Shown here piece after piece: positions 2 to 1,975 of a stretch of 64,000 bases of DNA; within the stretch, counting starts at the first letter, position 1, and every line of letters starts with the position of its first letter. The position numbers and the translations under genes are program-made. Source of the DNA: Acidobacteriota bacterium (lineage in GTDB: Bacteria; Acidobacteriota; Blastocatellia; Chloracidobacteriales; JADJPF01); assembly GCA_016213785.1 (NCBI GenBank), contig JACQZQ010000021.1:1-64000 (forward strand), read 5' to 3'. The notes beneath the pieces are model-generated. The model was not told where the DNA came from, made no database searches, and saw only the letters and a program-made list of their open reading frames with translations.

Positions 2-1303
2 CTACTTGATTTTGGTATTTCTAAAAGTTTATCTCAAGACAACCAATCAAATACTACTAATATTACTAAATCTGGTACAGTAGGCACGCCTAGGCATATG
101 TCTCCTGAACAATTACATCATGAAGAAAAACCTATAACTTACAGTTCAGATATATATTCCCTAGGAATTGTATTCTATGAAATTTTATCCAAACAGCATC
201 CTCTTATAAACAATGGTGAAATTAGTATGCCTATTCCTGATTTTCGCTGGATATCTAAGCACCTAAATCAATCACCCAGGCTACTTTCAACCATTTGCCC
301 TGATTTACCGACTAATTTAGTTGATCTAGTTATGAATATGTTAGCTAAAGAGCCAACAAATAGACCTTCACTAGACATAATTGGAAATGTACTTAGTAAC
401 CCTAGCCAACCGTACAAAAGCCTATCTCTATTTACATTTGAAACAGTAAAAGTGGACATTAAAGGGAAAATAATAGAAAGAAAGAAAAAGCAAGCAAGGC
501 AATATATAGAACACTTAGGAAATGGAGTTATGCTAGAAATGGTAGAAATCCTTGCTGGAGAATTTATGATGGGAACAAGCGAGAGTGATATAGAAAAAGT
601 TGTTGCAGAGTATAAAAGATATGGTAGAAGTGAAGAAGATGCTCGTAGATGGGTAAAAGAAGAAACACCACAACATAAAGTAAGAGTAGAAATGTTTTAT
701 ATAGGAAAATACCAAGTAACACAAGAACAGTGGAAAGAAATAATGGGAGATAATCCAAGTTACTTCAAAGGAGAGGATAAACTACCAGTAGAAAATGTGA
801 GTTGGGAAGACTCTAGTAAATTCTGTAAGAAACTATCAGAAAAAACAGGAAAAGAATATAGACTAGCAAGTGAAGCAGAATGGGAATATGCATGTCGTGC
901 AGGAAGCCAAACACCTTTTGCATATGGGGAAACAATCAATACAGAGATAGTAAACTATGAGGGTGAGCATCCATATGGAGAAACACCCAAAGGAGGATAT
1001 ATAGGAGGAACAATGCCAGTAGGAAGTTTAGGAGTAGCTAACGAATTTGGGTTATATGATATGCATGGAAATGTATGGGAATGGTGTCAAGATGAGTGGC
1101 ACGACAATTACAATAATGCTCCTACGGATGGCAGTGCCTGGGAGAACATACCTAGCAATAATACGCTCCGGGTCTTGCGTGGTGGTTCGTTCAACAGCCT
1201 TGCTAACGCTTGTCGTTCTGCCCTCCGCCTCAGGCTTGCGCCGGACTCTCGTCTCAGCGGCCTTGGGTTGCGTGTTGTTATGTCTGCGCGGACTCTTAAG
1301 TAA
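2..1303 (+). CDS. Ser/Thr protein kinase fused to FGE-sulfatase-like domain (5' end outside window); candidate DGR target
   Basis: The reading frame is open from the window edge, so the gene is cut at its 5' end. The first codons give the DFG motif (Asp codon at 8-10), followed by an activation loop ending GTVGTPRHMSPEQ, the APE-type motif and the SDIYSLGIVFYEIL helix of a Hanks-type kinase C-lobe. After a short linker (about 430-530) comes a formylglycine-generating-enzyme/sulfatase-modifying-factor domain: GEFMMGTSESD, YQVTQEQWKEIMG, PVENVSWEDS, YRLASEAEWEYACRAG, GNVWEWCQDEW and the terminal RVLRGGSFNS...GLRVV signature. Kinase-FGE fusions are known targets of diversity-generating retroelements. 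The last ~135 bp are GC-rich and A-poor, unlike the rest of the gene. Domain calls are firm. The biological ligand is unknown. Without the N-lobe, catalytic competence cannot be fully judged. Confidence 0.9.
   Translation, partial: LLDFGISKSLSQDNQSNTTNITKSGTVGTPRHMSPEQLHHEEKPITYSSDIYSLGIVFYEILSKQHPLINNGEISMPIPDFRWISKHLNQSPRLLSTICPDLPTNLVDLVMNMLAKEPTNRPSLDIIGNVLSNPSQPYKSLSLFTFETVKVDIKGKIIERKKKQARQYIEHLGNGVMLEMVEILAGEFMMGTSESDIEKVVAEYKRYGRSEEDARRWVKEETPQHKVRVEMFYIGKYQVTQEQWKEIMGDNPSYFKGEDKLPVENVSWEDSSKFCKKLSEKTGKEYRLASEAEWEYACRAGSQTPFAYGETINTEIVNYEGEHPYGETPKGGYIGGTMPVGSLGVANEFGLYDMHGNVWEWCQDEWHDNYNNAPTDGSAWENIPSNNTLRVLRGGSFNSLANACRSALRLRLAPDSRLSGLGLRVVMSARTLK
1166..1300 (+). other. Candidate DGR variable region (VR) at the 3' end of the kinase-FGE gene
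   Basis: From the Leu-Arg-Val codons at 1166 to the stop there are about 14 adenines in 138 nt, whereas the upstream FGE coding sequence is rich in A. In retroelement-diversified FGE-type proteins the corresponding template typically encodes Asn (AAY) at the exposed positions between fixed RGGS, CRSA, R.R, PD.R and G.RVV residues. Here these fixed residues are kept and most intervening positions are Leu, Ser or Ala in codons such as ctc, agc, gct and ctt, as expected if template adenines were replaced. No matching template repeat and no reverse transcriptase were found in the window, so this is a strong inference, not proof. Confidence 0.65.
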
Positions 1304-1461
1304 GATCTTGTACTCTTTTTCCCTATACACTTATAGCGAGCGTAGCGAGCGCATGAAAATTTTTTTTGATTTTGACATTATTTTAAAATATGCAAGAATT
1401 GTCCCACTAAAACTCTAATTTCTGTTTTGACAATTACTTGGCACTCACGTGCACTTGGCAC

Positions 1462-1687: not shown

Positions 1688-1975
1688 GAGGCTCAAGAAA
1701 TAAGATTTTTCTAAACTCAGAGGCTCAAGAAATAAGATTTTTCTAAACTCAGAGGTTCAAGAAATAAGGTTTTTCTAAACTCAGAGGTTCAAGAAATAAG
1801 GTTTTTCTAAACTCAGAGGCTCAAGAAATAAGGTTTTTCTAAACTCAGAGGCTTAAGAAATAAGATTTTTCTAAACTCAGAGGTTCAAGAAATAAGGTTT
1901 TTCTAAACTCAGAGGCTCAAGAAATAAGACTTTTCTAAACTCAGAGGCTTAAGAAATAGTTTTTTTTCTAAACCG
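1688..1975. repeat. Tandem array of a 32-bp unit, about 9 copies
   Basis: The unit starts GAGGYTCAAGAAATAAG and ends TCTAAACTCA. Copies start at 1688, 1720, 1752, 1784, 1816, 1848, 1880, 1912 and 1944; the last is degenerate. Units follow each other with no spacers and differ mainly at C/T in position 5 and A/G near position 18. It is therefore a minisatellite and not CRISPR. Confidence 0.9.

Follow-up and report, generated by a model that had tools for sequence, protein, structure and literature searches.

A probable diversity-generating retroelement variable repeat at the 3' end of a kinase-lectin gene in a Blastocatellia bacterium

The target gene and its adenine-poor end

The window analyzed here was a stretch of 64,000 nucleotides, the first 64 kb of contig C124 in a draft genome (6.4 Mb, 132 contigs, 96% complete) of an Acidobacteriota bacterium of the class Blastocatellia. 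At its start, frame 2-1303 on the plus strand matched both Pkinase (E 5e-16, C-lobe only) and FGE-sulfatase (E 1.3e-50). The contig start cut the kinase at its DFG motif (LLDFG), leaving the N-lobe and catalytic loop outside the contig, and models of antiphage kinases (PD-T4-6 and similar) matched this kinase only at the generic C-lobe. The FGE domain ran to the stop codon. The features of the locus are as follows (TR-B, template repeat of a genus-mate; C129, another contig of the same genome; C105 and C349, contigs of the genus-mate):

2-1303, plus strand: target gene with a Ser/Thr protein kinase C-lobe and an FGE/C-type-lectin domain (open frame, domain matches)
536-1279, plus strand: FGE-sulfatase (PF03781) domain with a C-type lectin fold (domain match, predicted structure)
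1166-1288, plus strand: variable repeat (VR), equal in length and register to TR-B
1191-1264, plus strand: hypervariable core of the VR, from the first to the last differing template-adenine site (alignment to TR-B)
1265-1288, plus strand: constant 3' end of the VR at the position of an IMH (initiation of mutagenic homing), two bases differing from the template
1288-1372, plus strand: 85-bp 3' tail across the stop codon, with 100% identity to the tail of the C129 gene (L006 792-876)
1385-1400, plus strand: vestige of an avd gene start, AAAATATGCAAGAATT, a 16-mer that recurs exactly where avd begins on C105 and C349

About nine tandem 32-bp units (GAGGCTCAAGAAATAAGATTTTTCTAAACTCA) were also present 3' of the target gene (window 1688-1973).

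The first-pass annotation had proposed that this gene ends in a variable region of a diversity-generating retroelement (DGR), citing its base composition, fixed residues and codons. An exact count gave 14 adenines among the 138 bases of 1166-1303, and the upstream FGE coding sequence was indeed A-rich, with 20-31 adenines per 60 bases over most of its length. Among those ends of the 42 FGE domains in this genome that could be parsed, the window gene had the lowest A fraction (0.11; others, 0.21-0.33), and only the window and contig C129 carried VR-like ends. The fixed residues expected of diversified FGE domains were also found (RGGS, CRSA, R.R, PDSR and GLRVV).

Structural prediction placed the VR at the C-terminal end of a domain with the C-type lectin fold. 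The AlphaFold model of the FGE domain, based on 26 homologues, reached a pLDDT of 91.7, and a Foldseek search with this model ranked PvdO (5hha) first and TvpA (2y3c) third (E 1.1e-17), with FGE enzymes next. In phmmer alignments, the window repeat was matched to the corresponding C-terminal region of TvpA. With regard to the two catalytic cysteines of FGE (human Cys336 and Cys341), one Cys was retained (NACRSA), and the position of Cys336 appeared by eye to be a variable codon. The suggestion of a surface-exposed kinase was not supported: no membrane segment was found between kinase and FGE, the highest 19-residue hydrophobic average over the whole available protein being 1.12. Since no transmembrane segment parts the two domains, the variable tip is probably cytosolic, on the same side as the kinase.

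Templates, cassettes and a second repeat

We searched one genus-mate, the Blastocatellia MAG nzgw73 (G001), which contained nine matches to the repeat. Contig C105 of this MAG carried, in order, a caspase-FGE gene, avd, a reverse transcriptase (RT) gene, a non-coding template repeat (TR-A) and two further caspase-FGE targets. The Avd protein matched NF033474 (137 bits, cut-off 80) and PF22296, and the RT (360 aa, motifs GLPIGNLTSQ and YVDD) had the DGR RT of BPP-1 (8ub7) as its best PDB match (E 1.6e-51). Compared with TR-A, the repeats of the three targets showed 9-16 differences among 26 adenines and 0, 0 and 1 among 90 other bases; for one repeat, a one-codon insertion was set aside before counting. 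The second template, TR-B (flank sequence, ACCTTGAAAGAGGTAGATTTGGGACATGTCACTCCGGG), lay on contig C216, 3' of the last 40 codons of an RT gene whose upstream part was replaced by a transposase gene. In this damaged cassette (L023 5912-6532), the template was preserved nonetheless. Around the two templates (L019 12763-12890 and L023 5734-5861), the flanks had roughly the similarity of a recent duplication (93% overall), but the templates diverged from each other at the sites where their target families diverge.

An ungapped alignment of the window VR to TR-B, which is the sequence of another species, revealed differences at 22 of 31 template adenines, against 6 differences among the 85 other bases (Fisher p=1.5e-11). 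The adenine enrichment persisted within the variable core alone (p=1.4e-8), no such enrichment being seen for C, G or T, and each adenine left in the core aligned with a template adenine. The first-pass annotation had also anticipated that template Asn codons would read differently in the window. This proved correct, as TR-B contains 13 AAC, AAT or AAA codons that are mostly altered in the window, where they read AAC, AGC, CTT, AAC, GCT, CTC, CTC, CTT, TCT, CTC, AGC, GGC and CTT. The segment 1265-1288 would serve as the IMH, judging by its position. TR-B also fitted the gene ends on two other genus-mate contigs, C349 (an FGE protein 3' of AAA/MoxR-like and vWA genes) and C724 (an LRR-Roc-COR-phosphoesterase-FGE protein); C496 fitted it more poorly (16 of 31 adenines vs 13 of 85 other bases).

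A search for further genes with the same end in the window's own genome yielded one, on contig C129. Four of the six non-adenine differences between the window VR and TR-B were common to C129 (positions 26, 98, 104 and 107) and two were found in the window only, which fits the copying of both repeats from a species-specific template. The two repeats differed from each other at 13, 12 and 5 sites in codon positions 1, 2 and 3, respectively, and were 73% identical, compared with 82% for the upstream FGE parts and 100% for the 3' tail. The C129 copy lacks its upstream part, adjoins a transposase-like fragment at the contig start and is shifted in its 3' frame. Beside it (L026 1092-1687) lies a small gene pair that might encode a putative antitoxin and a MazF/PemK-like toxin.

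Within the window's genome, the 85-bp tail was confined to the two VR genes; recognisable forms of it lay 3' of genus-mate targets. Similarity between the window and C129 stopped past it. No stable hairpin was predicted within the tail (z -0.37). Its identity is well above that of the repeat and FGE parts, which may reflect either constraint (possibly a homing signal) or recent conversion. A few bases further, the exact 16-bp copy of an avd start at 1385-1400 suggested that the gene probably descended from a complete cassette. In the genus-mate, C349 still had an intact avd behind its target (97% identical protein), and C724 kept the vestige with avd gone. A comparison of the excision endpoints within avd in C724 and the window disclosed, by eye, no common sequence in the flanks past the vestige. 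Most simply, the window gene would be a former target of a target-avd-RT-template cassette, or a copy of such a target ending a few bases inside avd.

Origin of the repeat and whereabouts of its machinery

Taking the pattern and the relatives together, we consider it very probable that adenine-mutagenic retrohoming produced 1166-1288 as a DGR variable repeat. The original proposal is thus supported by the adenine-specific mismatch with TR-B, the machinery in the genus-mate, the C129 gene and the avd-start vestige. An error-prone DGR RT, together with Avd, would have copied a template RNA closely related to TR-B, incorporating random bases wherever the template has an adenine; the resulting cDNA would then have replaced the 3' end of the kinase-FGE gene in a past retrohoming event. 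In this way, about 12 codons of the lectin-fold domain, on its ligand face, would have been altered with the scaffold kept. The gene, probably derived from a target-avd-RT-template cassette, would now be an orphan or remote target, its RT and template being either lost or located on DNA missing from the assembly. Functionally, binding of a ligand by the variable FGE tip could switch the kinase, and the protein would most likely be an intracellular sensor kinase whose ligand is set by the random lectin tip, a role that has been proposed for cyanobacterial kinase-CLec proteins (PMC7517822) and for conflict-system sensors (PMC10907252). Its pathway is probably one of conflict or defence, judging from the sister targets (caspase, MoxR-vWA and LRR-Roc-COR fusions).

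Counting against this explanation are the six non-adenine mismatches to the foreign template, the lack of RT, avd and template in the own assembly, and the position of the kinase N-lobe and catalytic loop beyond the contig. As the first-pass annotation had indicated, neither template nor RT lay in the window, and tblastn revealed no match to avd or RT downstream of the target; since only the 16-bp avd-start vestige stands next to the target, the window was not classed as a complete cis DGR cassette. Queries with the VR and with TR-A plus flanks recovered the two VRs and no template from the 132 contigs, and all own-genome queries together (these, the RT protein and 20 kb of the genus-mate cassette) matched only the two VRs plus other FGE or kinase genes. 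Thus, no DGR RT, avd gene or template was found in the 96%-complete assembly. That same annotation had named a genome without RT or template as a refutation of its reading; such is literally the situation here, and we judged the comparative evidence to outweigh this absence.

The genome contained four RVT_1 matches, two of which were parts of one RT. Checked as candidates for the DGR RT, all were rejected: L001 belonged to group II intron RTs (304 bits, cut-off 300), L002 was retron-like, and L004 was group-II-like and adjoined a Cas1 fragment and RAMP genes. L002 (1126-2697, minus strand, contig C131) carries a long charged N-terminal extension and scored 234 bits vs a St85 cut-off of 235. 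In the group-II-like, CRISPR-associated RT on contig C40 (L027 75-1800, minus strand), an additional stretch splits the RVT_1 halves; its neighbours, a Cas1-like N-terminal fragment and RAMP-type genes, resemble an RT-associated type III CRISPR locus.

Two accounts of what became of the machinery appear about equally likely. According to the first, which falls slightly short of an even chance, an ancestral DGR made the VR and its RT and template have since been lost, leaving a fixed tip under normal selection. The absence of RT, avd and template from a 96%-complete assembly agrees with such a loss, as do the damage to the C129 copy (upstream part gone, transposase-like fragment, shifted 3' frame) and the reduction of the RT in the second genus-mate cassette to a tail with a transposase adjacent. 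However, the target frame remains open, with 11 of 13 Asn/Lys template codons changed and zero stops; both VR genes lie at breaks in the own assembly, which may therefore lack related DNA; and relatives within the class retain intact cassettes. According to the second, which may nearly as well hold as not, the gene is a remote target of a DGR that is still present, its RT and template residing on an unassembled contig or plasmid and acting in trans. The position of both own VRs, in the window and on C129, at contig starts is in keeping with this, and action in trans has been reported for Thiohalocapsa (PMC10907252). Moreover, each of the two contigs with a genus-mate template also has partition- or replication-like genes (ParA-like on C216), and such neighbours suggest that the machinery may be plasmid-borne and lost in binning. 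On the other hand, the 6.4 Mb yielded zero direct trace of RT or template, and the plasmid idea comes from a reading of neighbour genes. With regard to the proposal that the tip is rewritten by a reverse transcriptase, the VR itself is supported, whereas the gene would be an orphan or remote target whose current activity is only possible.

A non-DGR origin, in which this end came from an FGE paralogue with odd base composition or from ordinary conversion between FGE genes, is very improbable. FGE genes are abundant (42 domains) and base composition alone could mimic A-depletion, but the differences sit on template adenines (22 of 31) with no excess at C, G or T, every remaining core A matches a template A, and the genus-mate holds a template of equal length beside an RT.

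Known systems and implications

The literature already documents kinase-lectin DGR targets, remote targets, action in trans and degenerate loci, and the window VR is well supported as a further case of the known DGR mechanism and not a new system. In cyanobacterial DGRs, kinase-CLec proteins have been described as remote variable proteins that carry the VR at the 3' end, are dispersed from the DGR and are mostly predicted to be cytosolic, and kinase is the commonest functional domain of the DGR-internal targets in that set (Vallota-Eastman et al. 2020, PMC7517822). The window protein shares with them the Ser/Thr kinase, the C-terminal C-type lectin and the VR position, but its host belongs to Blastocatellia and its own assembly lacks RT and template. 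DGR-diversified sensors of conflict systems combine FGE/CLec targets with MoxR-vWA, kinase, caspase-like and TIR-NACHT partners (Dore et al. 2024, PMC10907252; Kaur et al. 2020, PMC7159879), and their DGRs include degenerate loci, transposon damage and in-trans action (PMC10907252, PMC7159879). In contrast with these sensors, the window gene is known from sequence and has no MoxR/vWA neighbour. TvpA, a DGR variable protein of Treponema denticola (2y3c), has the same fold and C-terminal VR region, but shares 26% identity and its solved chain contains no kinase domain. The RT (8ub7) and Avd of BPP-1 are homologous to the genus-mate proteins, whose genes are missing from the window's assembly; compared with BPP-1, the genus-mate gene order is target-avd-RT-TR.

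Across the class, RTs related to that of the genus-mate (E<=1e-30) were present in 10 of 162 genomes, their named relatives being mostly cyanobacteria, and most such loci yielded, by script, pairs of template and repeat whose mismatches were biased toward adenines. Their targets were FGE ends fused to caspase, TIR-NACHT, pentapeptide repeats, lectin-like domains and protein kinase. One of them (G026 contig C91, L108) has a kinase-FGE cis target with its VR in register with the TR, and avd and RT present, which gives the window gene a direct precedent. Both genes are kinase-FGE fusions, whereas the G026 machinery is complete and in cis, and a hydrophobic segment can be read between kinase and FGE in its protein but not in that of the window. 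On another contig of the same genome (C33, L116), two TIR-NACHT-FGE genes lie on opposite strands and one template fits both. In the open-licence papers searched, no description of Blastocatellia DGRs of this type was found.

A broader scenario, which we consider unlikely on present evidence, is that the lectin tip, VR, conserved 3' tail and first avd bases spread across the genome as a module onto unrelated N-terminal signalling domains (kinase, LRR-Roc-COR, a MoxR/vWA partner, caspase), while template copies diverged in parallel with the target families and a mobile replicon provided the RT. Our results extend kinase-lectin DGR targets, known from cyanobacteria, to Blastocatellia, and indicate that a target can be recognised from one genome and the template of a relative even where an assembly lacks the machinery. 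Finally, this genus offers a clean comparison, having two templates, N-terminal signalling domains of at least four kinds, and genes with avd-RT in intact, broken and vestigial states, which would be useful for understanding how targets leave their cassette and whether diversification continues afterwards.
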